DNA of 47,386 bases from Myxococcales bacterium (GCA_013297655.1 JAAFHV010000041.1:1-47386), one strand, 5' to 3'. Counted from the stretch's first letter, positions 35,897-47,386 are shown. The notes: generated by a model not told the origin, from the letters alone. A program made the numbers and translations.

Positions 35897-36655
35897 TCAA
35901 CCGTGATCCACCTCGGGAGCTTGAAATCCCGCCGCTCGGAAGGTCAGCACGAGGGTATCGCGATGGGCCCCCGGCTCGGCAAGCACGATCGGCGTGGTCT
36001 CGTGCACGACCCGTGCGTCGTCGAGGAGGAGCGCCGCCCAAGGCGCACCGAGGGAGAAGCGCACGCCCCGTGGTCCGTTCGCCTCGAAGACGCGGGTCTC
36101 GCCGCCCTTCACCCCCACGCGGTCCACCAGGATGACCGCGACGAAGTCGACCCCGTCGCGGTGCGCGCCCTCGGGGGTGGGCCTGCCCACGCCCTCGCGC
36201 GGATCGATCCGAAACGCGTGCGCCTCGACGAACCAACGCTCCACCGGCTGCAGCTCCGCGAAGAGCTGCCCGAGGGAGCCCACGAGCGAGGCGAGGCCTC
36301 GACTCGAGAAGACCGCGTCCGCGAGCGGCGAGAACCATCGCAAGAGCCCACCGTGAAGCGCGTTGTAGGTGACGGGCTGGTAGTGCGCGCGATGCTCGGC
36401 GAGGGTGAGAGCGCCCGTTCCCGGCTCGTAGACGAAGCAGCCGTGGCGCCGAAAGCGGTACGCACCTCCGTCGAGCAGGTGCGCGTCGGCCGGCAGGTCG
36501 TCCCACGACGAGACGAGAGCGTCGAGCTCGGCGCGGACGGCGCCGGTGGTCGCGAGCGTCGCTTCCGGCGAGAGCACGACGAAGCCATCGTCGCGGAGAG
36601 AGCGCGCGACGTCGGCGCGGGTGGTCGGAGCGGCGAGACCGAGAGGAAAAGCCAT
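35897..36655 (-). CDS. 2-oxoglutarate/Fe(II) dioxygenase (PF10014-like)
   Basis: 252 residues. The pattern fits the 2OG-Fe dioxygenase family that includes isoleucine-4-hydroxylase: RFRRHGCFVYEPG, YQPVTYNALHGGLLRWF, then the Fe-binding HRDGVDF (His-x-Asp), and the distal His in RVVHETTPI, with Arg downstream for 2-oxoglutarate. All ligands are in place. Such enzymes hydroxylate free amino acids or natural product intermediates; the substrate here is unknown because no biosynthesis cluster is adjacent. Soluble, with no signal. It is followed by a gap of 93 bases before the repeat lipoprotein gene on the same strand. Confidence 0.85.
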   Translation of the reverse strand: MAFPLGLAAPTTRADVARSLRDDGFVVLSPEATLATTGAVRAELDALVSSWDDLPADAHLLDGGAYRFRRHGCFVYEPGTGALTLAEHRAHYQPVTYNALHGGLLRWFSPLADAVFSSRGLASLVGSLGQLFAELQPVERWFVEAHAFRIDPREGVGRPTPEGAHRDGVDFVAVILVDRVGVKGGETRVFEANGPRGVRFSLGAPWAALLLDDARVVHETTPIVLAEPGAHRDTLVLTFRAAGFQAPEVDHG

Positions 36656-36773
36656 GACGCGCTCCTATAGGATCGCGCCACGGCAAAAGGAACCTGCGCC
36701 GCGTGCGAGCGGTCTCGCGCCGAGAGCGGTCGACGTGAACGTTCGGCGCTCGTAGGTTGGCCGACCGCGGCGC

Positions 36774-37511
36774 TCAGCCCTTCTTGAGGGCGCCGGTGCC
36801 GTCGATCACGTACCGCTCCGGGAGCGCCTTGCGCACGGGCTCACGTTGCTCGTCGGCGATCTGGGCGCCGAGCTGGAGGAGCCCGTCGCAGATCTTGTTC
36901 TTCACGCGGACGCTCTCTTCTTCGAGGAGCTGCGCGACGAGCGGCTCGACGAGCCCTTTGTCTTTCTGGGCGAGCCCCGCCATGACCGCGTTGAGGCGTG
37001 CGGTCTCGTTGGAGTCGGCCAGGAAGGGCGTGACGGCGGCGAGGATCTTCTCGTGCTTGTGGTCCTGCAGCTCTTCCAGGATCTGAAGCTTCGGATCGAT
37101 GAACTTTGCGTACTCGGTGTCCCACTTGGAGAGCCACTTGAGCAGCTCCTCGACGTACTCGTCTTCCTCGACGATCTCCTTGAGGAGGCGCATTGGCCAG
37201 GACACGCTCTCGGCCTTGCTCGCGAAGGCACGGATAGGCTCGACCGCGCCGCGCCCGGCCGCCAGCACGCCGCGGTAGGCGAGATCTTTTTCGTCTTGGT
37301 CGGTGATCGAAGGGTCGATGACGAAGGTGAAGCGACGGAGGAGCGCCTCGGCGGCCTCCGGCGTGCCCATGTTGGCGAGCTCGGTGATGGCTTCCTGGCG
37401 ATCGTAGTTCTGGGCGCGCTTGCTGCCCGCGGCCTCCGCCCACTTCGCGGCGGCCGACGACTTCTTGCCGGCCGATCCCTTGTCTTTCTTGAAAAAGTCG
37501 AAAAAGCCCAT
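36774..37511 (-). CDS. HEAT-repeat protein
   Basis: 245 residues, soluble. The N-terminus is a lysine-rich amphipathic stretch (GFFDFFKKDKGSAGKK) that could bind membranes or nucleic acid. Then come four to five HEAT-like helical pairs (REAITELANMG-type repeats: EAITELANMGTPEAAEALL, LAYRGVLAAGRGAVEPIRAF, NETARLNAVMAGLAQKDKG). HEAT repeats form solenoids for protein binding. No enzyme motif is present. It lies 118 bases upstream of the dioxygenase on the same strand. Confidence 0.82.
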   Translation of the reverse strand: MGFFDFFKKDKGSAGKKSSAAAKWAEAAGSKRAQNYDRQEAITELANMGTPEAAEALLRRFTFVIDPSITDQDEKDLAYRGVLAAGRGAVEPIRAFASKAESVSWPMRLLKEIVEEDEYVEELLKWLSKWDTEYAKFIDPKLQILEELQDHKHEKILAAVTPFLADSNETARLNAVMAGLAQKDKGLVEPLVAQLLEEESVRVKNKICDGLLQLGAQIADEQREPVRKALPERYVIDGTGALKKG

Positions 37512-37651
37512 CGTCGAAGCGCTCGTTGGTCGAAAGGAGAGTCTGCGTGGCGGCGATCTTCTTGGGAAGCGAGCCTTGGACAGACAGGAGAAGCTACGCG
37601 GGCCGGGGGACCCGCTCGTGGTCGCTTAGGTTTCGTTCGCGGCGGTAGAAG

Positions 37652-39049
37652 TCAAGAGAGGGGAACGGCGAGGAGCTGAACTTCCTTGTCCGCCCGCTTC
37701 ACCTGGTAACGCACGGCGCGGCCGTGTTTCTGCGCCGCCTCGGCCTCCATGCTCTGGATGCGGGCGCGGAACGTGGGCTCCGTGATGTGGTCGGTCGCCT
37801 CCCCGAGCGCCTTCTTCGCATCGATGTATTCTACATAGAGACGCTGGTAGTAGACCTCGGCGGCCTCGCTCTTGAGGGCGGCCACGTCGGCGCCGGCTTC
37901 GACCTCGGCGGCGGGCTGGTAGCTCTTCGCGGACGGCGGATGCGAGAGCCTGCCTTCTTCGTCGCTCGTGTCTTCCTCGACCCCCATGAGGGCGTTCAAG
38001 AGCTGATCGATGCGGAACGCGAGACCTCCCAGCTCTTCGTGCTCCATGTTGAAGCGCTTGTCGCTCTGGCCGTTGACGATCGCGAGGAGGCCCTCTTCGA
38101 GGGTGTTGATCGGCGTGGAGATGTACGAGCCGAGGAAGCCGCCCGCGACGATGACGAGCACGAGCCCGAGCACGGTGGCGCCGAGGACCGGCCACGCGAG
38201 CGCGCCGGGAGACTCGATGAGGGTCGACGCACCGAGCGCGAGGGCGGCGACGTGCTTGCCCTCGCCGAACCCGTCGAGCGGGCTCGCCGCGAACACCACC
38301 GAGCCCGCGTTGCCGCTCGCGGCGTGACCGGAGCCGATCGCGGTCTTGACCTCGTCGGAGGCCTCTTGTTCGACGGCCTTCGCGGCGTCGTTGCTCGTCG
38401 CAGCGAGCCTCACGTCTTTGCCGTCGTGCACGTAGATGGCGACACCTTCGCCGCTCGTGAGGTCGTTCACCTTCGCGATCGCGTCGTTCAGGCCCATGCC
38501 GAGGACGAGGAGCGCGGTGACCTTGCCGCTCGAGTCGCGGACCGGCGCGTAGCTGACGACGTATTTGTCGTTCTTGCGCTCGATCCACACGTCCGAGCCG
38601 CCCACGCCCTTGGCGATGCTGGTCTTGACGAGCGGATACGAGGCCCCCACGTCGTCGCCGCGCTCGAGGGGCGAGCCATTTCGACCGACGATTTTGCCGT
38701 TCGCGTCGACGAACGCGACGAGCGAGGGGGCGGTAGAGAACACCGATTTTGCGGCGCCGGCGACGCTGTCGCAGAACGCGGTCGCGGCGTCGCCCTTGGC
38801 GTTGTCGGAAGACTTGTTGAACACCTCGAGCGCGGCGGGCTCGGTTGCCTTGACGGCGAGCCAGCGTTCGATGCGGAGGCCGTCGAGCTGGAGCCTCGCC
38901 GACACCGACTGAGCGTCGCGCTCGGTGCGCGCTTTGACGCGCTCTGGGTTGCGGGCCGCGGCCAACGTCGACTGACGGACGATGACGAACGACAAGAGGC
39001 CCACGATGAGGACAATCGCGGCGTTGACGGCAATGATCTTGTTGCGCAT
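37652..39049 (-). CDS. MXAN_5187-family membrane sensor protein
   Basis: 465 residues from the ATG at 39047-39049; the upstream frame is poor. Membrane helix 1 is IIAVNAAIVLIVGLLSFVIV. An extracytoplasmic sensor domain of ~250 residues follows, cache-like in look (DGLRIERWLAV, YVVSYAPVRDSSGKVTALLVLG). Membrane helix 2 (LAWPVLGATVLGLVLVIVAGGF) is followed by a HAMP-like helix (ISTPINTLEEGLLAIVNGQ). The C-terminal ~70 residues (VYYQRLYVEYIDAKKALGEAT, QKHGRAVRYQVKRADKEVQLL) match the MXAN_5187 C-terminal domain I know from myxobacteria. No histidine kinase or methyl-accepting domain is attached, so the output is unknown. Confidence 0.82.
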   Translation of the reverse strand: MRNKIIAVNAAIVLIVGLLSFVIVRQSTLAAARNPERVKARTERDAQSVSARLQLDGLRIERWLAVKATEPAALEVFNKSSDNAKGDAATAFCDSVAGAAKSVFSTAPSLVAFVDANGKIVGRNGSPLERGDDVGASYPLVKTSIAKGVGGSDVWIERKNDKYVVSYAPVRDSSGKVTALLVLGMGLNDAIAKVNDLTSGEGVAIYVHDGKDVRLAATSNDAAKAVEQEASDEVKTAIGSGHAASGNAGSVVFAASPLDGFGEGKHVAALALGASTLIESPGALAWPVLGATVLGLVLVIVAGGFLGSYISTPINTLEEGLLAIVNGQSDKRFNMEHEELGGLAFRIDQLLNALMGVEEDTSDEEGRLSHPPSAKSYQPAAEVEAGADVAALKSEAAEVYYQRLYVEYIDAKKALGEATDHITEPTFRARIQSMEAEAAQKHGRAVRYQVKRADKEVQLLAVPLS

Positions 39050-39307
39050 TCGGCCTCTCGGAGAGGTGCGGGAAGGTGGGACAGAGCGAGCGACGTGCTC
39101 GACGGCGAACCGTCGACGAAAGCAGCGGTGGGCCCTCTTGCTGCGACCCTGAGAAACGACGGGGGAAAGCCTGCCGCGACGGCGGGCCGATGCTCCCATC
39201 GCGAAGCTATCATCCGCGACTTCGAGGCGGCAACATGCGATAACGTTACGCAACGCGCTGCGCTGCGGCCAAGGGCCTGCCTGCGTGGCGCAAGAGCCGC
39301 TTCACCC

Positions 39308-40336
39308 ATGTCTTCTTCTGCCCGCGCCCTGCTCCTCGACGATCCCGCCTTCGCGCGGCATGTGCCCCTAGGGCACCACCCCGAGCGCCCGGAGCGTCTC
39401 CTCGCGGCGCGCGCGGCGGTCGAGCGGGCTCGTTCGTTCGTCACGTTTTCCCCCATGATTCCGCGGGAAGCGACGGTAGAAGAGCTCATCCGGGTCCACG
39501 ATCCACGCTACGTCGAGGCGATGGAGCAGCGCCGCGGCGACTCGCTCTACCTCGATCCGGATACTTACCTCTCGGAGGAGAGCGTCGTGACCGCGAAGCT
39601 GGCGGCGGGCGGCGTCGTGGGCATGGTGGACGCGATCCTCGACGGCGATCATCGTCAGGGCGTCGCCCTCGTCCGCCCTCCCGGTCATCACGCGCGGCCC
39701 GGCCGAGCGATGGGCTTTTGCCTCTTCAACAACGTGGCGGTGGCGGCGGCCCACGCACGAGCACGCGGGCTGTCGCGGGTCGCGATCGTCGACTTCGACG
39801 TTCACCACGGAAACGGCACGCAAGAGATCTTCTACGACGATCCGAGCGTGCTTTACGTGTCGACCCACCAAGCGCCGCTGTATCCCGGCACTGGCGACAC
39901 GATGGAGACCGGCGAGGGCGACGGCCGCGGATTCACCGTAAACGTGCCCCTCACCGCCGGCGGGGGAGACGACGTGTACCGCGGCGCGTTCGAGCGCGTG
40001 GTGCTCCCGGTGCTCTCCGAGTTCGCGCCCGAGCTCGTGCTCATCAGCGCGGGTTTCGACGCCGCGGTCCGCGATCCCCTCTCCGAGATGCGCCTCGAGA
40101 GCGCCGCGTTCGGCTGGATGACACGCGCCCTCCGTCGCGTGGCCGACACGAGCGGCAGCGGGCGCACGTTGCTCGTGCTCGAGGGTGGCTACGATTTGCC
40201 CGCGCTCGAGGGCGGTCTTCACTCCGCGATCGGCGGCCTCACCGGCATCGCCGAGGAGATCGCGCGCGACGTAGACCACCCCGACCTGGCCCGCGCCGCG
40301 AGCTCGGTACGCCACGTGTGGAGCGGCGTGACCTGA
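39308..40336 (+). CDS. histone deacetylase-family hydrolase
   Basis: 342 residues, the typical length of bacterial HDAC/acetylpolyamine amidohydrolases. Visible motifs: HHPERPERL at the start, RPPGHHARPGRAMGFCLFNN with the His pair acting as general base, DFDVHHGNGTQEIF with the Asp and His zinc ligands, AGFDAAVRDPL with the third zinc Asp, and LEGGYDL with the Tyr that stabilises the transition state. All catalytic residues are present. Possible substrates are acetylated polyamines, acetoin-pathway compounds or acetyl-lysine proteins. The start ATG has only a weak SD. It is separated from the divergent sensor gene by 258 bases. Confidence 0.94.
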   Translation: MSSSARALLLDDPAFARHVPLGHHPERPERLLAARAAVERARSFVTFSPMIPREATVEELIRVHDPRYVEAMEQRRGDSLYLDPDTYLSEESVVTAKLAAGGVVGMVDAILDGDHRQGVALVRPPGHHARPGRAMGFCLFNNVAVAAAHARARGLSRVAIVDFDVHHGNGTQEIFYDDPSVLYVSTHQAPLYPGTGDTMETGEGDGRGFTVNVPLTAGGGDDVYRGAFERVVLPVLSEFAPELVLISAGFDAAVRDPLSEMRLESAAFGWMTRALRRVADTSGSGRTLLVLEGGYDLPALEGGLHSAIGGLTGIAEEIARDVDHPDLARAASSVRHVWSGVT

Positions 40337-40459
40337 GGTCCGCCTTCGTGTCGAGGTCCTCGCTCTTTCGCGCGGTCCCGAGCCCGCGACAACTTTGGCA
40401 TAGGTCTCGACGCACCACGAGGAGGCACGCCCGCAGCCGTTCGGTTCGCCCTCGCGCGG

Positions 40460-41059
40460 TCACTTCCCGCATTTCGCCCCCCCCGCCGGCGGAGGGCACT
40501 TCACGAGGCAGAGCTGCTGCGCTTGGTGGCAGTACTCCATTCCTGGTTTCGTCCGGTAGGCGCACCCTTTGATGCACGCGGACTCGTCTGCGCTCTGCGG
40601 CTCGGCGGCCTTCGAGGGGTCGGAGTGGGGGCTCTTGTAGGCGTTGCGGACGGCCATTTCGATACGCCCCTTCTTCGGGTTGAAGGCCTCCGCGGCGTGG
40701 AGCTCGCGGGGGAAGTCTCGTGTCCAGGAAGGATTGGTAACGATCCCGGGGAAGACACACTTGTCGAGCATGTACTGCTGGAGCTCGTCGCGCGTGGGGC
40801 GCATGTTGAGCGGGAGGACTCCCTTCCCTTCGGTCTCCTTGCAGCACTGGAAACAGGCTCCTACCTTGGTCTGTTTCTTCACCGCTTTTACGCACTCCTC
40901 CATCAGCGTCTCGCAGGTGACATGGCAGGACGTGGTGTCGGCGCAGACCTCTTCACCGCCGACGGAGAGCGCGGGTCCCTCGTCGGTGAACGACACGGAG
41001 ACGAGGAGCGCGGTGACGAACGACGTCGCGAATACAGCGGTAGCTTTGGAGCTCTTCAT
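40460..41059 (-). CDS. Cys-rich exported protein next to the Tad locus
   Basis: 199 residues. The start overlaps the stop of the upstream gene (ATGA at 41056-41059). The N-terminal hydrophobic segment (AVFATSFVTALLVSVSF) is a signal peptide or anchor. The mature part has about 15 Cys, including TTSCHVTC, EECVKAV, GACFQCC, ACIKGCAY, CHQAQQLCLVKC and AKCGK. The spacing looks like disulfide-bonded pairs or metal-binding rather than a known family. It is the last gene of the tadE-like/membrane/Cys-rich unit. An extracellular role linked to the pilus is possible but inferred. Confidence 0.75.
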   Translation of the reverse strand: MKSSKATAVFATSFVTALLVSVSFTDEGPALSVGGEEVCADTTSCHVTCETLMEECVKAVKKQTKVGACFQCCKETEGKGVLPLNMRPTRDELQQYMLDKCVFPGIVTNPSWTRDFPRELHAAEAFNPKKGRIEMAVRNAYKSPHSDPSKAAEPQSADESACIKGCAYRTKPGMEYCHQAQQLCLVKCPPPAGGAKCGK

Positions 41060-42051
41060 GGCGACACCTCGAGGACGCTCTTCGCGTTCTTGGACTGGAA
41101 TTTTTGTTCGGTGACGGCGAACACCGTCTTTTCGTCTTGGGCGTTCGCGGCGACGAGGACCTCGAAGCCGTCCCGGAAGTAGACGCGCAAGGTGTGCGTG
41201 CTCGAAGGCGGCGTGAGCCGCGTGAACCCTGCTTTTTTCAGCGTCTCGTCGTAGTGGGCAATCACGGCGGGCACCTTGGCGTCGCTCGTGAACACGTTGG
41301 TCGACTGCGAAGCGCCCTCGATTTCGGCAGTGAGGATCCGTGTCGCTCCCGCCGGACGCGGCACGGTGCCATCGTGGCCATGCGTCTCTCCGCCGGTGGT
41401 GATCGCGGCGAGGCTGAAGTGCTCGTCGGTCGACGCGCGCGTGACATGCGTTTTCCCGTTGGCGCCGCGCTTCGCGTAGACGTAGCTCAGCTTGCCGAGG
41501 TCCCCCAGGTCCTGCGAGCTCGCGAACGCGGAGAGGGACTCCACCGTGCCGCGCGGGTGCTTCGGATCTTGGGTGAAGCACATGACGACGCCGTCTTTTT
41601 CGGTGCCGTTGCGCACGATCCCGTGGGTGAACGAGCCCTCGATCGAATAGGCCTTTCCGCCCTTCAAGGTTCCCTTCTTCGGCATCGCCTCGAAGAGGCC
41701 GGCGAACGCCCCCGGGCTCTCCGCGCAAGCCTTCTCCGCGTCGTCCAGCACGGCGGCGACGGGCGCGTCTTCGACGCTCTCTCCGAGGTGAAAACGCTGT
41801 CCGTTGAGGCTCGCGGTGTATCCCCCCCGAAGGTCGGTCGTGGTCTGGGAGAGCTCACGCCCCATCGACAGCGCGGCGCTGCCGACGTCGGCGCGGGCCT
41901 TGTGTGCGGCGGCCATTCCGAGGCCGGCGGTGACGAGTCCGGCATACCCGACGACGCGGAGGGCCCCCGCGAAGCGAGAGGACGTCTTGCCCGTCGTGGG
42001 GCATGTGCGGCGGGTGGCCTTCCAGGCGAGATAAAGAAGAATCGGGTTCAT
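41056..42051 (-). CDS. single-pass exported hypothetical protein, coupled to the pseudopilin gene
   Basis: 331 residues from an ATG after AGGAGA. A hydrophobic segment at ~28-50 (FAGALRVVGYAGLVTAGLGMAAA) acts as signal anchor. Then a secreted domain of ~270 residues of mixed alpha/beta type (RGGYTASLNGQRFHLGESV, SLAAITTGGETHGHDGT, FTRLTPPSSTHTLRVYFRDGF). No family is recognised. It starts 31 bases after the TadE-like gene and overlaps the next gene by four bases, so these three genes form a coupled unit; a role in pilus assembly or pilus-associated secretion is inferred from context only. Confidence 0.75.
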   Translation of the reverse strand: MNPILLYLAWKATRRTCPTTGKTSSRFAGALRVVGYAGLVTAGLGMAAAHKARADVGSAALSMGRELSQTTTDLRGGYTASLNGQRFHLGESVEDAPVAAVLDDAEKACAESPGAFAGLFEAMPKKGTLKGGKAYSIEGSFTHGIVRNGTEKDGVVMCFTQDPKHPRGTVESLSAFASSQDLGDLGKLSYVYAKRGANGKTHVTRASTDEHFSLAAITTGGETHGHDGTVPRPAGATRILTAEIEGASQSTNVFTSDAKVPAVIAHYDETLKKAGFTRLTPPSSTHTLRVYFRDGFEVLVAANAQDEKTVFAVTEQKFQSKNAKSVLEVSP

Positions 42052-42082
42052 GGCTTTTCTCCTGAGCGCGCAGCTCTTCGGG

Positions 42083-42721
42083 TCAGTCTTTCGTGCGGAA
42101 GTCCGAGCGGCCGCCCTCGGTTCTTCCCTCGGTCCCGGCAGCTTTTGTCACCTCCGAGCCCACGGTCTTCGCCATCGAGCCGAGGTCTCCGTCCATCGGC
42201 GGCTCGTTGCACAGCGTGGTCGAGCGCGCGCCGCGAACGCGGAGAGAGAGCCCCTTTCCGCCCGAGGATTTGCTCGGAAACGGATTGGCGATGAGCTTGT
42301 CGGCGTAGGTCGCGTCGGCGAATCCGGACTGCCCACGAACGGCAGGAGAGGTCTTGGACATTTGCTCTTGGAGCGCGTCGGACTTCGGGTTTCCGGACAC
42401 GTGCGCGGGGTGCGCGAGGGTGGTGTCCTTCTTCGTCACGTCGCCGCGCGTGGAAGGCGCTCCGAGCCCGCTCGCGGAGGGGGTGCCCTCGCAGTCGTGC
42501 GACGCGTAGTCGAGCGCGGCGCTGCGGATGCTCTGGTTCGACTCGAGCTTCGTCTGATAGCCGCGGAACATCATCGTCCCGAGTCCGAGGAAACAGACGA
42601 GCACCGGGATGACGAGCCCCGCCTCCACCATCGCGGCGCCGCGCGAGCGACGAAGGCGCGGACGGAGGAGCGTGACCAGACCGAGGGCCTCGAGAGAGGG
42701 GGGTGAGGGAGGGTTCTTCAT
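42083..42721 (-). CDS. TadE-like pseudopilin
   Basis: 212 residues. A basic, Pro-rich leader of ~28 residues ends in the prepilin site G|AAMVE, with Glu at mature position 5 as the consensus demands, then a hydrophobic helix (LVIPVLVCFLGLGTMMF). The rest is a secreted, Gly/Ser-rich domain of ~150 residues with a pair of Cys. TadE/F-type pseudopilins are minor subunits that help assemble Flp pili. The peptidase that should cleave it is encoded at 44738-45295. The SD is unusually the leader box itself (GAGAGGGG, 4 bases before the ATG). Confidence 0.85.
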   Translation of the reverse strand: MKNPPSPPSLEALGLVTLLRPRLRRSRGAAMVEAGLVIPVLVCFLGLGTMMFRGYQTKLESNQSIRSAALDYASHDCEGTPSASGLGAPSTRGDVTKKDTTLAHPAHVSGNPKSDALQEQMSKTSPAVRGQSGFADATYADKLIANPFPSKSSGGKGLSLRVRGARSTTLCNEPPMDGDLGSMAKTVGSEVTKAAGTEGRTEGGRSDFRTKD

Positions 42722-42723
42722 GA

Positions 42724-42741
42724 CGCCCCTCTCTCGGTCGG
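42724..42741 (-). promoter_or_regulatory. shared leader box, copy 1 (TadE-like gene)
   Basis: Plus-strand CGCCCCTCTCTCGGTCGG, read as CCGACCGAGAGAGGGGCG on the transcript. It is identical to the copy at 45679-45696, and its AGGGG can serve as SD for the TadE-like gene. Confidence 0.7.
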
Positions 42742-42789
42742 GCCCCGGGATTCGTTGCGGCCGCGCGCGCTTTTCTTGTTCGAAAGCGC

Positions 42790-42823
42790 AAGGGCCCGAT
42801 TTCCCGAAAGAAATCGAGCCCTT
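42790..42823 (-). terminator. hairpin after the TadG-like gene
   Basis: AAGGGC and CGATTTC (42790-42803) pair with GAAATCG and GCCCTT (42810-42823), with one internal mismatch and a six-base loop. It lies 21 bases after the TadG-like stop in the minus direction; a short T-rich stretch (GCGCTTTCG) follows. Confidence 0.6.
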
Positions 42824-42844
42824 CTATCCGTCGCCGGAGCGCCG

Positions 42845-44251
42845 TCAGTGCAGGATGTGGTTCGCCCCCTGCCCCGAGATGCCCTCGATGAGCTCCGCGC
42901 CTCCCTCGCGGACGGCGTCGCGGCTCGGGGGATGTCCGCCCGAAGAGGCGAAGCGGGTGTGGTTCTTCTCCGCGAGACCGAGGGCGTCGCGCAGGCTGAA
43001 GGGTCCGAGCTTCGGGAGCGCCACCGGACGAAGGCGGGCGCGCCACTTCATGTTGAACGTCGCGTGGCTGTCTTCCTCGACGTCGCCGTTGCAGCTATCG
43101 CCCGCCCACTTTCCGCCGCACGCGTAGAAGAACTCGGCCTGCGCGAAGAAGGGGAAAAACTTCGGTTTGTCGCCCGTCTTCTCGAGCGCGTCGGCCTTCG
43201 GCAGCCCGCGTTTGGTGCCCTCGCCGAGCGCGACCTTGGCCGAAGATTGGCCGTCGTCGTAGTCGCCCGGGAACGAGAGGTCCCACACCTGCATGTACGC
43301 GGAGCCGTTCTTGGCGGGCTTGTACATGCGCTTCCAGCCGAGCATCTTCGTCTCCCAGGGGAAGCCGCTGCAGTAGCTGCCCGCCTCGGTGAAGGCGCCC
43401 GCGACCCACGAGAGCACGTCGCCGAGGAAGCCCGGAAAGTAGTTGGTCACGCTGTCGGCGGCGAGCTCGCACAGCTTCGCGTTTTCGACGTTGACGAGCG
43501 GGAGGCCGAGCTTGGTCTCGTCGTCCTTTTCCGCGTCGCTCGCCCCGGCTTGGCGGTCGGTTCCGCGACCGGCTGATTGCGCTTCGCACGCGCTGCCGCC
43601 GGTCGAATCTCCGGTGCCATCGAACATCGAGTCCAACGGGACGTCGAACGCGAGGCCCGGCACGTGGGAGGGCCCGAGAGCCATCGCGGACGCGTCGTAC
43701 CCAGACCCCACGTTCGCGGCCATCGCCGACCCGATCCATGGGTATCCGAGCGAAGCGGCGGTCTCGATCCCGGAGAGTACCGGAAGCACCGGCGTGATCA
43801 CGGCGCGCTCGTAGGCGTTCCGAGCGTTTACGAGCGAGGTGTACGCGTTGCATGCGACGGCGAAGAGCGGGGTACAAACCAACGTGGTCACGAAGAACGC
43901 GGCGCACGCGCCCAGGATGCCCATCGCGATGACGAGCAAATCGCGGAGCACGCTCATGACGATCCAGAGGAGCGCCAAGACACGCATCAGCACGTTGATC
44001 GCGGCGACGAGGTTCATCCCCCGTGCGTGCACGACCGCCGCCGCGTAGACCTCGTGGTCGGCCGCTTCTTGCATGCGTTGGCGGTAGACCACCGCGTCGC
44101 CGAGGCCCTTCATCGACCACATGCCCGCGATGAGCAGGAGCGCGAAGAAGAGGCCCATCACCATCACCGCGCCGTGCTCGTCGTGACGAAGGGCGCGCAC
44201 GTTGGGGCTCTTTTCTTGGCGCAGGCCCTCGGCGCAGATCATGGTTTTCAT
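42845..44251 (-). CDS. TadG-like pilus assembly protein
   Basis: 468 residues from the ATG at 44249-44251, after AAGGA. A leader of ~27 residues precedes a prepilin-like junction HGAVMV followed by a hydrophobic helix (GLFFALLLIAGMWSM). The expected Glu5 is Met here, so processing may be weak or absent. Further hydrophobic segments occur around 80-130 (VLALLWIVMSVLRDLLVIAMG, CAAFFVTTLVCTPLFAVAC), more than a normal TadG. The C-terminal 300 residues form an exported domain with Cys pairs. TadG-type proteins anchor Flp pilus assembly in the envelope. It lies 13 bases downstream of a TadE-like gene in the peptidase operon. Confidence 0.78.
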   Translation of the reverse strand: MKTMICAEGLRQEKSPNVRALRHDEHGAVMVMGLFFALLLIAGMWSMKGLGDAVVYRQRMQEAADHEVYAAAVVHARGMNLVAAINVLMRVLALLWIVMSVLRDLLVIAMGILGACAAFFVTTLVCTPLFAVACNAYTSLVNARNAYERAVITPVLPVLSGIETAASLGYPWIGSAMAANVGSGYDASAMALGPSHVPGLAFDVPLDSMFDGTGDSTGGSACEAQSAGRGTDRQAGASDAEKDDETKLGLPLVNVENAKLCELAADSVTNYFPGFLGDVLSWVAGAFTEAGSYCSGFPWETKMLGWKRMYKPAKNGSAYMQVWDLSFPGDYDDGQSSAKVALGEGTKRGLPKADALEKTGDKPKFFPFFAQAEFFYACGGKWAGDSCNGDVEEDSHATFNMKWRARLRPVALPKLGPFSLRDALGLAEKNHTRFASSGGHPPSRDAVREGGAELIEGISGQGANHILH

Positions 44252-44264
44252 TGGAGTATTCCTT

Positions 44265-44741
44265 TTATTCTTCCGCGTAGAGGGCGCCCTGATGGGGCAT
44301 CGTGGCTTCGGCTTCGAGGAGCTTTTGTGGGCCCTTGCAGATCACGCGGCCCATCATCGGGACGGCGCACGCGACCTTCGCGGACACCTTCACGCGGACG
44401 GGACCGCTCGGATCGAGGAGGCTCGAGGTGTCGCTCACCTCCACGTGCACGTCGGTGATCGACTTCGACTCCAAGAACGGGAGGAGCGCTTGGTTCACCG
44501 CCCGCTCCGGCATGTCGTTCTCGCGACGGGGGACGCCGGGATTGTTGCCGTGCGTGTTCGAGGTGACCGCGGCGGTGCGCGCGCCGCAGACCGCGGCGTT
44601 CGTGAGCATGAGCTTCGCCGTCTCGAGGCGCGTGACTTGGTAGAGCGAGAAGAACGTGCCGAGGAGGGGCACGACCGCGATGACGAACTCCGCCATCACC
44701 GCGCCGCGCACGTTCTTGCGCGACCTTCGGCGGGCGCTCAC
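44265..44741 (-). CDS. second TadE-like pseudopilin
   Basis: 158 residues from a GTG at 44739-44741 that overlaps the peptidase stop (GTGA). A short basic leader (SARRRSRKN) ends in VRG|AVMAE, the ideal prepilin processing site with Glu at position 5, followed by the hydrophobic helix FVIAVVPLLGTFFSLY. The remaining ~110 residues are a secreted alpha/beta domain with Cys pairs (AVCGART, KVACAVP, VICKGP). It is a minor pilin candidate, and the translational overlap with the peptidase gene suggests they are produced together. Confidence 0.85.
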   Translation of the reverse strand: MSARRRSRKNVRGAVMAEFVIAVVPLLGTFFSLYQVTRLETAKLMLTNAAVCGARTAAVTSNTHGNNPGVPRRENDMPERAVNQALLPFLESKSITDVHVEVSDTSSLLDPSGPVRVKVSAKVACAVPMMGRVICKGPQKLLEAEATMPHQGALYAEE

Positions 44742-45295
44742 GACGCACCGCCGAGAGAGTCGGTCGCGTGGAGGACGAGGGTCACCACCGTGGCGGCGAG
44801 GATCGCGGGGCCCATCTTGAGCCACGTCATCGTCTCGGCGGCCACCTCGCGACGCGCAGAGGCGGGGCGCACGCTGTTCATCGCGAGCGTGCTCACGTTC
44901 TTGAGCGTCGAGAGCAGCTTGCCCTGGTAAATCAGGCTCACCGGCGCGATCAAGATCGCCGCGACGAACGCCCAGGTGAGGATCTCGAGACCGAGCGCGG
45001 GCTGCGCGAGCGCACCGAGAGCGGCGAAGAGCTTCACGTCCCCGGCGCCGATCGCGGACTTTCGATAGAGGGTCGCCGGCACCATCGCCGCGACGACCGC
45101 GCCGACGACGGAGAACGCGCCTTCGAGGACCGCGTCGTCGTGGGAGAGGCCGAGCTTCTGCGCGTAGGCGAAGCGGGCGATCGGCGCGAGCGCGAGCACC
45201 GGGAGGGTGAGCGCGTTCGGGATTTTTCCGGTCTTGAGGTCGGTCGCGCAGGCAGCAGCGGCCACACCGGCCGCGACGTAGAGAAAGGGGTCCAT
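44738..45295 (-). CDS. cpaA: prepilin peptidase, CpaA/TadV type
   Basis: 185 residues, typical for the compact A24 family. About five to six transmembrane helices. Active-site aspartates are Asp19 (CATDLKTGKIPN) and Asp86 in the GAGD motif (AIGAGDVKLF), both intact. It cleaves the leader of Flp-type prepilins at G|xxxxE. Matching substrates lie on both sides: two Flp-like pilins upstream and TadE-like proteins downstream. The gene follows a leader box and GGAGG SD, and it starts an operon of three genes. Confidence 0.95.
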   Translation of the reverse strand: MDPFLYVAAGVAAAACATDLKTGKIPNALTLPVLALAPIARFAYAQKLGLSHDDAVLEGAFSVVGAVVAAMVPATLYRKSAIGAGDVKLFAALGALAQPALGLEILTWAFVAAILIAPVSLIYQGKLLSTLKNVSTLAMNSVRPASARREVAAETMTWLKMGPAILAATVVTLVLHATDSLGGAS

Positions 45296-45325
45296 GGCAT
45301 CCTCCGAGGGTTCGTTCGTTCCGTT

Positions 45326-45339
45326 CGCCCCTCTCTCGG
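45326..45339 (-). promoter_or_regulatory. shared leader box, copy 2 (peptidase gene)
   Basis: CGCCCCTCTCTCGG on the plus strand, 31 bases before the peptidase ATG. Here the SD is a separate GGAGG nearer the start. Confidence 0.65.
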
Positions 45340-45440
45340 CAGCGCCACCGCGGTCGTTGCGTCGCGGACGATCTTTTTTCTGGCCGTTGGCTCATGTCGC
45401 TCGCAGGCCGTGTCGGCGCGTGTCTGGCGCGCAAACGCCG

Positions 45441-45471
45441 AAGCGCCGACTCCCTCGCGGGGCCGGCGCTT
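45441..45471 (-). terminator. hairpin after the Flp pilin gene
   Basis: AAGCGCCG (45441-45448) pairs with CGGCGCTT (45464-45471), 25 bases beyond the Flp pilin stop in the minus direction. The sequence after it is only weakly T-rich. Confidence 0.55.
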
Positions 45472-45495
45472 GCTCGGAGCGTTTCGCTCGGCGCA

Positions 45496-45663
45496 TCAGA
45501 AGTGTTGGGTGGCGGCCTCCGTCGACGCGCGGACCTTCTCGCCGAGGGTCTTCATGCCCACCGCGCCGAGGATGAGGACCGCGACGAGCAGCAACGCATA
45601 TTCCACCATCGCCGCACCGCGCACGCTCGACATCGCGACGACCATCTTCTTGTTCTTCTTCAT
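45496..45663 (-). CDS. flp: Flp-type pilin (55 aa)
   Basis: 55 residues, below common ORF size cut-offs. Leader MKKNKKMVVAMSSVRG ends at Gly16, then AAMVEYALLLVAVLILGA: the ideal Flp site with Glu5-Tyr6 of the mature chain and a hydrophobic helix. The mature pilin would be about 39 residues, normal for Flp. It is the best candidate for the main subunit. It is bounded by a leader box upstream and a hairpin downstream, so it is probably transcribed alone, as expected for a highly expressed major pilin. Confidence 0.9.
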   Translation of the reverse strand: MKKNKKMVVAMSSVRGAAMVEYALLLVAVLILGAVGMKTLGEKVRASTEAATQHF

Positions 45664-45678
45664 GACCCACCTACCTTT

Positions 45679-45696
45679 CGCCCCTCTCTCGGTCGG
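45679..45696 (-). promoter_or_regulatory. shared leader box, copy 3 (Flp pilin)
   Basis: CGCCCCTCTCTCGGTCGG on the plus strand, identical to copy 1. It is 16-33 bases before the pilin ATG; the SD is the separate AGGTGG. Confidence 0.7.
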
Positions 45697-45783
45697 CTCC
45701 GCGATCGTGTTGCGTGGCGCGTGTTCTTTTTTCGTCGTCGCTCGTCACGCGCTTTTCCCTCGCCGCGGACGTTCGAAACGAAA

Positions 45784-45815
45784 CGAGCGCCGACCCCTCG
45801 CGGGACCGGCGCTCG
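45784..45815 (-). terminator. strong intrinsic terminator after the second pilin
   Basis: CGAGCGCCG (45784-45792) pairs perfectly with CGGCGCTCG (45807-45815). In the minus direction it is followed by TTTCGTTTCG. The stem is the same family as the hairpin at 45441-45471. Confidence 0.75.
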
Positions 45816-45836
45816 AACACGAAACTTCGTGAGCCC

Positions 45837-46082
45837 TCAGGGGGTGCTGCGGACGACGTGGTCGCGGGTCGTGCGGTAGTCGCGGAAGAGCTTCGCGCCG
45901 GCGAGGCTCACCCCCGCGATCGACGGGACCACCACCGCCGACAACACGAGCGCGTACTCCACCATCGTGGCAGCGCGCCCTCGAAGCCGACGACGCGCGC
46001 TCACGAGCGAGACGGACGAGACGGACGACGACACGGGAACGACAGACGAGGCATCAACTTGGGACGTGGGCCGGGTTTCCAT
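45837..46082 (-). CDS. Flp-like pilin with long leader
   Basis: 81 residues from an ATG after AAGGAG. The leader is long (~37 residues, Ser/Val/Arg-rich) and ends at GRA|ATMVEYALVLSAVVVPSIAG, so position -1 is Ala instead of Gly if Glu is kept at position 5. The hydrophobic helix and EY motif are otherwise Flp-like. It may be a second, lower-abundance pilin. It is flanked by a leader box and a strong terminator. It is the first pilin gene after the tRNA-His gene. Confidence 0.8.
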   Translation of the reverse strand: METRPTSQVDASSVVPVSSSVSSVSLVSARRRLRGRAATMVEYALVLSAVVVPSIAGVSLAGAKLFRDYRTTRDHVVRSTP

Positions 46083-46095
46083 GGGAGCTCTCCTT

Positions 46096-46108
46096 CGCCC
46101 CTCATCGG
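46096..46108 (-). promoter_or_regulatory. shared leader box, copy 4, diverged
   Basis: CGCCCCTCATCGG, 13-25 bases before the long-leader pilin ATG. One TC unit is replaced compared with the other copies. Confidence 0.5.
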
Positions 46109-46167
46109 CAGCGGACGGCCGGTCGTTTCCTCGTGGTCGACAGAAACACGACGCCAGAAAGACGAAA

Positions 46168-46182
46168 CCCCCTCGCCGGGGG
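46168..46182 (-). terminator. tRNA-His terminator
   Basis: In the minus direction CCCCC, loop GGCGA, GGGGG, then TTTCGTCTTTCT. It begins 32 bases after the tRNA 3' end and is likely to end the tRNA transcript. Confidence 0.65.
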
Positions 46183-46214
46183 GGCGAAAGGGCTCGTTTT
46201 TACTCACGTTTCGG

Positions 46215-46287
46215 GGTGACTGACGGGGATTGAACCCGCGACAGCCGGATCCACAATCCGGCGCTCTACCGACTGAGCTACAGTCAC
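46215..46287 (-). tRNA. tRNA-His (GTG)
   Basis: Minus-strand cloverleaf of 73 bases including the discriminator. Acceptor stem GTGACTG (46287-46281) with CAGTCAC (46222-46216), D-arm GCTC...GAGC, anticodon loop TTGTGGA between CCGGA and TCCGG giving anticodon GTG, T-arm GCGGG-TTCAATC-CCCGT. Discriminator is C73 (46215). The 3' CCA is not encoded. The base before position 1 is C rather than the G-1 expected for tRNA-His. Confidence 0.95.
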
Positions 46288-46410
46288 GAAGAGCGCGAAT
46301 CATAGTCGCGTCACCTGGGCGCGCAACCAAATTCGTGCGCGTCGCGTCAGGCCGGGCCGCTGCGCGCGCTCCATGGTGCGGAGGCTCGCGCCTCCGGAGC
46401 GACGCGAGGC

Positions 46411-47386
46411 TCAGAACGGCGTGCCTTTGGCGAAGTCTGCGTCGATCGTGGCGGCGACCTTGCCGACCTCGGTCGCGTTGTCGGTGAGGACGCCGACCTC
46501 GCGGTTCTTGAGGAGCGCGGTCTGGGTGAAGTTCTGCGAGCCGATGTACGCGCGGGTCTTGTCGATCACGATCGCCTTCGCGTGGATGTCCGGGGTGCCC
46601 ACCTTCACGATTGGGATCTGGGCCGCCCGCAGCGCGGCGATGGCGGTGTCTTGGCCGGGCGACGGCTCGCGATCGTTGAGGATGATGCGCACGTTCTTGC
46701 CGGCCCGCTTGGCCGCGACGAGCGCCTCGACGACGAACGTGTCGGCGAGCGACTCGCCCTCGAGATCGACGTCTTTCTTGGCCTGTTGAATGAGGGAGAC
46801 GAGGCGCTTCTGCGGGTCGACCGGGGTCGCGGTGGCGGGGGAGACGACGAGGCGACCGGGGATGTCCTTCGACACGTTCGCGAAGTCGCCCTGGAAGATG
46901 GTCTCGAGCTCCGCGACCTCGTCTTTCCCGGTGATTCGGACGAGGTACTCCCGGTTGTCGATCGGGCTCGTCTGGGTGAGGTTCATCGTCATGATCCAAC
47001 CGGACGTGCCGTCGATCACCATCGTCTTGGCGTGGGTGAACGTGAACGCGGGAGGCGCGTAGACCACCTCGACGGAGCCGGCGCGGAGCTGGTTGTAAGC
47101 GTCGAGGTTGCCGTTGCCGCCGGTGGGAAAATCTTTGTTGAGGACGACCTTCACGTCGCGGCCCGCCTGCTTCGCGGTGCGCAGCGCTGCGATCACGGCG
47201 TCGTTCGTGAGGAGGTACATCTCCATGTGGATGGAGGTCTTCGCGTTGCGGATCGCGTCCAGGATGGAAGCGCCGCGATCGCTCGGCATGACCTGCACCG
47301 TGAGCTCGTTCACGAAGGTGAGCGGGATCGGCTGGACGACCGCGCCGTCGGGGAGGACGAGCGCGGCATCACCTTCGGGCTCGACG
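46411..47386 (-). CDS. phospholipase D-like protein, 5' end cut by the window
   Basis: The frame stays open to the right edge (upstream of the GTG at 47313 it reads in frame as a normal protein), so the N-terminus is missing. Two HKD-type halves are visible: HAKTMVIDGTSGWIMTMN in the first and HAKAIVIDKTRAYIGSQN in the second, both with His, Lys and Asp. The two halves together make one active site. Family members hydrolyse phosphodiesters in lipids or nucleic acids. The cut N-terminus probably contains a signal peptide or anchor, but that is not visible. A GC hairpin without T-run (46379-46396) follows the stop. Confidence 0.88.
   Translation of the reverse strand, partial: VEPEGDAALVLPDGAVVQPIPLTFVNELTVQVMPSDRGASILDAIRNAKTSIHMEMYLLTNDAVIAALRTAKQAGRDVKVVLNKDFPTGGNGNLDAYNQLRAGSVEVVYAPPAFTFTHAKTMVIDGTSGWIMTMNLTQTSPIDNREYLVRITGKDEVAELETIFQGDFANVSKDIPGRLVVSPATATPVDPQKRLVSLIQQAKKDVDLEGESLADTFVVEALVAAKRAGKNVRIILNDREPSPGQDTAIAALRAAQIPIVKVGTPDIHAKAIVIDKTRAYIGSQNFTQTALLKNREVGVLTDNATEVGKVAATIDADFAKGTPF

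Follow-up and report, generated by a model that had tools for sequence, protein, structure and literature searches.

A repeated module in a pilin locus

Why should a small pilin cluster carry a similar box and hairpin in several of its spacers? The question is raised by the minus strand of a 47,386-nt stretch of a Myxococcales bacterium (GCA_013297655.1 JAAFHV010000041.1:1-47386; hereafter the window), in which the transcript order is tRNA-His, a long-leader Flp-like pilin gene, a Flp pilin gene, cpaA, a TadE-like gene, a TadG-like gene, a second TadE-like pilin gene and the gene of a 331-aa partner. An earlier note on this DNA had described the spacers as copies of one module (terminator, AT-rich tract, box, Shine–Dalgarno (SD) sequence, start), an anatomy that our analysis bears out, the observation being real and mostly as described. 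The boxes are very probably the -10/start halves of a promoter class read by one alternative sigma factor.

The box reads CCGAGAGAGGGGCG on the minus strand (CGCCCCTCTCTCGG on the plus strand) and occurs in exact form at 42724-42737, 45326-45339 and 45679-45692, preceding the TadE-like pilin, CpaA and Flp genes, respectively (three copies vs 0.00 expected from shuffles). Each exact box is preceded by CGCAAC at a distance of exactly 16 nt, with an A-tract about 18 nt beyond that, and the pair of CGCAAC and box is matched three times in the window against 0.02 expected. With three mismatches allowed, the box alone gives 26 matches vs 25.4 expected in the window, which is a chance number; therefore, the weight rests on the exact copies and on the bipartite form. 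Two of the copies are identical over 18 bases (CCGACCGAGAGAGGGGCG), and an A-run and a CGCAAC-like stretch recur in the same three spacers, both as the earlier note had reported.

The three predicted promoter cores, all on the minus strand, belong to the TadE-like pilin gene (42724-42759, with CGCAAC at 42754-42759, N16 and CCGAGAGAGGGGCG at 42724-42737, and AAGAAAA at 42771-42777; 41.6 bits with profile R1), to the cpaA–tadE–tadG-like unit (45326-45361, an exact CGCAAC-N16-box, with A6 at 45374-45379; 44.9 bits) and to the Flp pilin gene (45679-45714, likewise exact, with A6 at 45727-45732; 41.0 bits). A fourth boxed start, that of the long-leader Flp-like gene, had also been proposed, with a diverged box. 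The candidate there (46096-46130, minus strand; GGAAAC-N16-CCGATGAGGGGCG) lacks an A-tract and scores 6.3 bits (E-value 0.11 over 11 kb), which is chance level and leaves it unproven as an element; three of the four boxed starts stand. The start codon of the TadE-like pilin gene (42721) lies only 2 nt past its box, which would leave this mRNA with no leader or hardly any.

The terminator-like hairpins that had been noted before the boxes greatly exceed shuffled sequence in stability (z-scores of -5.2 to -3.6). On the minus strand, they are situated directly after tRNA-His and before the first Flp-like gene (46165-46195; -23.2 kcal/mol, z -3.6), between the two Flp genes (45784-45815, with a 14-bp stem and a T-rich tail; -27.5 kcal/mol, z -5.2), after Flp and before the putative cpaA promoter (45441-45471; -32.4 kcal/mol with flank, z -3.6), and after the TadG-like gene and before the putative TadE-like pilin promoter (42790-42823; -24.6 kcal/mol, z -4.1).

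Distribution of the element in the genome

The whole genome was scanned by pattern matching and with a 60-position sequence profile built from 15 sites, for which the profile E-values are circular by construction. A search with the box only found six exact copies (none in the reversed control), and all six, including the three outside the window, have CGCAAC at 16 nt, a spacing for which they had not been selected. This is the strongest single result, and it goes beyond the earlier note both in the fixed 16-nt spacing and in that the element is genome-wide, not particular to the pilin locus. The bipartite pattern with up to three mismatches gave 17 genomic sites vs 3 in the reversed control, while the profile retrieved 16 sites of at least 34 bits and five at 22-26 bits (E<0.001), six of these 21 lying outside the training set. 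Independent evidence comes from the exact boxes (six), from the profile sites outside the training set (also six) and from the relatives, which serve as a negative control. The regulon is probably larger than 21 sites, because weaker profile matches often sit just upstream of a start codon and have CGCAACG and the CCGA core.

Alignment of 22 sites shows an invariant G.AAC in the putative -35 block and an invariant CGA in the putative -10 block, with CGCAAC in nearly all of them. The -10 core is always [C/T]CGA and in most sites is followed by GAGAG, a few weaker sites having GCCGATAG or GCCGATGA variants. The third part, an A-tract, precedes CGCAAC by 15-20 nt at almost every site; in two sites on contig C62, the distance is greater by about one helical turn. 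Nearly all sites stand just upstream of same-strand open reading frames, with 2-71 nt between box and start codon and an SD-like sequence in most.

The same element precedes unrelated genes on ten or more further contigs, a dozen or more unrelated loci sharing it. Its targets outside the window include a Flp pilin gene (C130), lipoprotein genes (C190, C246 and C525), the gene of an M48 peptidase-like membrane protein (C17) and two paralogous families without Pfam matches (L001, L004, L006, L030), one with two members on C62 and one on C37, the other with two on C149 and one on C215. For the proteins of the regulon, only M48 and Flp_Fap/TadE were informative Pfam matches, and Big_1 was marginal. 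On C22 (L113:3300-4874), a gene for a T2SSE-domain ATPase is directly followed by a weak site with a 15-nt spacer and then by a 257-aa open reading frame.

Relatives and paralogous loci

A profile search of 59 other genomes of the family gave one match in all. Order-wide, the pattern search gave 15 matches in the own genome and none in its controls, and 0-2 in each of 182 other genomes, the same as in the reversed control; an exact-pattern scan of GTDB species, a set that may not include the own genome, gave none. A single exact bipartite match in a genome of another family (G182:C260:2218-2252) is probably due to chance. Within the available sample, which holds no second species of the same genus, the promoter class appears lineage-specific, and its absence from the 182 related genomes would make it a case of recent regulatory rewiring.

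The relatives' tad loci keep the gene order and lack the box. The same genome has a second, compact paralogue of the cluster on C479 (L092:8754-13221), in which the gene order is also kept; the gaps there measure 11-86 nt, and the box is absent. A search with CpaA for related loci in the collection used for the exact-pattern scan returned nothing. The gap from Flp to cpaA is 200 nt in the window vs 19-129 nt in 19 homologous loci (C479 included), none of them with the box. Since these homologous loci are compact and box-free, the putative terminator and promoter would either have been added to the window copy or have been lost from the other loci. The earlier note had proposed to give up the module idea if related loci lacked the box. 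They do lack it, but we retain the idea, because the recurrence within the genome at fixed geometry outweighs this absence and points to a lineage-specific system.

A probable alternative-sigma promoter class

The two conserved blocks at fixed spacing, their constant orientation towards the gene, their nearness to the start codons of many genes and the upstream A-tract argue for a promoter class. In the module, an intrinsic-terminator-like hairpin would be followed by an A-tract at about -55 to -45 and by a -35 element CACGCAACG; after a spacer of 16 nt would come the -10/start region CCGAGAGAGGGGCG, then a short 5' leader and, 2-71 nt on, the start codon. About 15-21 genomic sites of this class would serve RNA polymerase with one alternative sigma factor, and in the window, Flp, cpaA–tadE–tadG-like and the TadE-like pilin gene would each form their own co-regulated transcription unit, replacing one compact operon. 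The earlier idea that the units are transcribed separately and answer to a common regulator thus seems right, as far as sequence can tell. Our literature search found no description of this promoter; we regard it as a new, lineage-restricted regulon of an already known kind. The housekeeping sigma70 type (TTGACA-N17-TATAAT) was excluded, because no such promoter was found in 36000-47386.

Several points weigh against an alternative-sigma promoter class. At 45441 and 42790, the hairpins are followed by weak T-tails, so that termination there is likely but not certain. The element is absent from relatives, so that there is no phylogenetic footprint, and the genome is a 9.9 Mb draft in 546 contigs with an estimated contamination of 4.45%. 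The cognate sigma factor could not be recognized by autoregulation: among the 84 Sigma70_r2 matches in the genome, 80 upstream regions were scanned, and the element was found in none of them (best 6.8 bits, vs 9.4 in the antisense control). Lastly, neither of the two nearest promoter types fits in full, as the -10 block has an invariant CGA instead of the CGT of extracytoplasmic function (ECF) promoters, for which reason we do not claim ECF membership, and the -35 block in nearly all sites is CGCAAC rather than the TAAA of FliA/WhiG promoters.

If the promoter class holds, several pilus parts together with surface or uncharacterised proteins could be switched on at once, and the repeat becomes a testable regulon with a defined promoter sequence, a target list and a few candidate sigma factors.

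Which sigma factor could read the class

Between the two nearest types, the ECF type is slightly favoured by the -35 AAC and the spacing, and the FliA/WhiG type comes next by the CCGA core of the -10 block. The geometry of sigma X promoters is matched by AAC-N17-CGA, and the FliA -10 element is GCCGATAA, of which the sites here keep the CCGA core. ECF promoters such as those of B. subtilis sigma X/W/M resemble the class in the -35 AAC, the AAC-N16/17-CG spacing, the upstream A/T tract and the cell-envelope targets; they differ in that the CGA found here has a G-rich extension, and neither a cognate ECF/anti-sigma pair tied to the sites nor an autoregulated ECF gene was found. AAC in the -35 element, present in all 22 aligned sites, is a hallmark of ECF promoters (PMC4153023). 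FliA/WhiG (sigma 28) promoters come near the class in the -10 core, (G)CCGA(T/G)A, are alike in that Flp/Tad genes can be placed under an alternative sigma factor, and are unlike in their -35 element and in serving one operon, whereas here several putative promoters stand inside one pilin cluster. On C525 (L124:3671-5016), an ECF sigma gene overlaps the gene of a hydrophobic anti-sigma-like protein, about 3 kb from the regulon site L124:7329(-).

The best-surviving alternative, which we consider possible though not probable, is that the promoter is read not by an ECF sigma factor but by the genome's single FliA/WhiG-like sigma (C38:8368-9084) with diverged -35 recognition. The invariant [C/T]CGA core and its variants resemble the FliA -10 element, and FliA drives the TAD operon in Bdellovibrio (PMC5430801). 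The C38 protein scores 115 bits, with WhiG 6pfv and FliA 6pmi as its best PDB matches, but it stays below the curated FliA_WhiG cut-off. Compared with 29 family orthologues, the helix of its region 4.2 lacks a histidine that is invariant in the others (R-[LI]-H to R-V-M) and differs in a serine too, a departure that would be in keeping with a promoter class found in this genome only; it correlates with that class, which is no proof of a link. Against this alternative stand the CGCAAC in place of TAAA, the absence of visible C38 autoregulation and the tad loci of the relatives, in which FliA-consensus promoters were not found and scores were at shuffle level. The FliA/WhiG-like sigma was matched in 43 of the 60 family genomes. 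A fuller scenario, in which this family-conserved sigma changed its -35 recognition in this lineage and, with a new -35/-10 pair spread through the genome, captured the tip cluster and the lipoprotein and uncharacterised families, and split the compact pilin operon, must be regarded as doubtful.

Operator, RNA element or duplication

It is unlikely that the element is instead an operator, at which an activator or repressor binds CGCAAC and the box while another sigma factor transcribes. The fixed spacing could mean one protein on two half-sites, and the G-rich 3' half exceeds a usual -10 element in length; however, the element is asymmetric, without inverted or direct half-sites, it always points at the gene, its 2-71 nt distance from the start codons leaves little room for a downstream promoter, and the region 36000-47386 contains no sigma70-type promoter. 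The suggestion that the box is a stand-alone regulator site gives way to a bipartite promoter, of which the box would be one half and the CGCAAC stretch the -35 element.

We give very little credence to the other suggestion of the earlier note, an RNA element in the leader that acts after initiation, with transcription starting further upstream. The box does overlap an SD-like purine tract and at 42721 stands directly before ATG, but covariation and a common structure are both lacking (3 pairs, -0.49 kcal/mol, 0 compensatory changes), and the A-tract and CGCAAC keep a fixed distance, as is typical of sites recognized in DNA. A structured RNA leader was excluded because no pairs are supported; Rfam matched tRNA only.

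That the modules are a recent tandem duplication of one gene and its spacer, without special function, is barely credible: the two Flp genes are followed by hairpins that nearly copy each other, but the bases between the conserved elements differ from site to site, and the sharing of the element by unrelated genes across the genome already contradicts it.

Gene content and likeness to tip clusters

Both a Flp pilin and a TadV/CpaA-type peptidase, the pair expected of a Tad system, are encoded on the minus strand of the window, downstream of tRNA-His(GTG) (46213-46287; Rfam RF00005, 68.6 bits). The peptidase (185 aa, 44738-45295) matches Peptidase_A24 with an E-value of 3.8e-16. The Flp_Fap matches are below the cut-off for both the long-leader Flp-like protein (81 aa, 45837-46082; E 0.03; prepilin motif GRAATMVEYAL) and the second Flp pilin (55 aa, 45496-45663; E 7.7e-4), although prepilin motifs are present. 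The TadE-like minor pilin gene (44265-44741; TadE E 0.006, below the cut-off) overlaps cpaA and belongs to the same transcription unit. The TadG-like protein (468 aa, 42845-44251) has no Pfam match and was assigned from gene order and an N-terminal hydrophobic segment; it is syntenic with the C479 paralogue. Further on are the TadE-like pilin (212 aa, 42083-42721; TadE E 0.1, below the cut-off; motif RGAAMVEAGLVIPV) and the conserved partner of 331 aa (41056-42051), which has no Pfam match and a homologue after the same genes in C479.

No TadA ATPase is encoded in the locus, and PF00437 (T2SSE) matches occur on other contigs only. The locus, which had been called a Tad locus, represents a "tip" cluster of minor pilins and a peptidase (Flp, Flp, CpaA, TadE, TadG-like, TadE-like); with the T2SSE ATPases elsewhere, it is not a complete Tad operon.

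Kil is a Tad-like pilus with tip complexes (PMC8460266, PMC12075869), and in Myxococcus such pili with exchangeable tips mediate contact killing (PMC12075869). Cluster II of the kil genes in M. xanthus encodes Flp and a short prepilin peptidase together with minor pilins of TadE/TadG-like type, which make up the pilus tips (PMC12075869), and the cluster in the window resembles it by gene composition, including the lack of secretion machinery nearby; unlike in the Kil system, putative promoter modules are a feature of this locus. If a lineage-specific sigma regulon controls one tip cluster and not its paralogue, it would illustrate how predatory bacteria could change from one set of tips to another.

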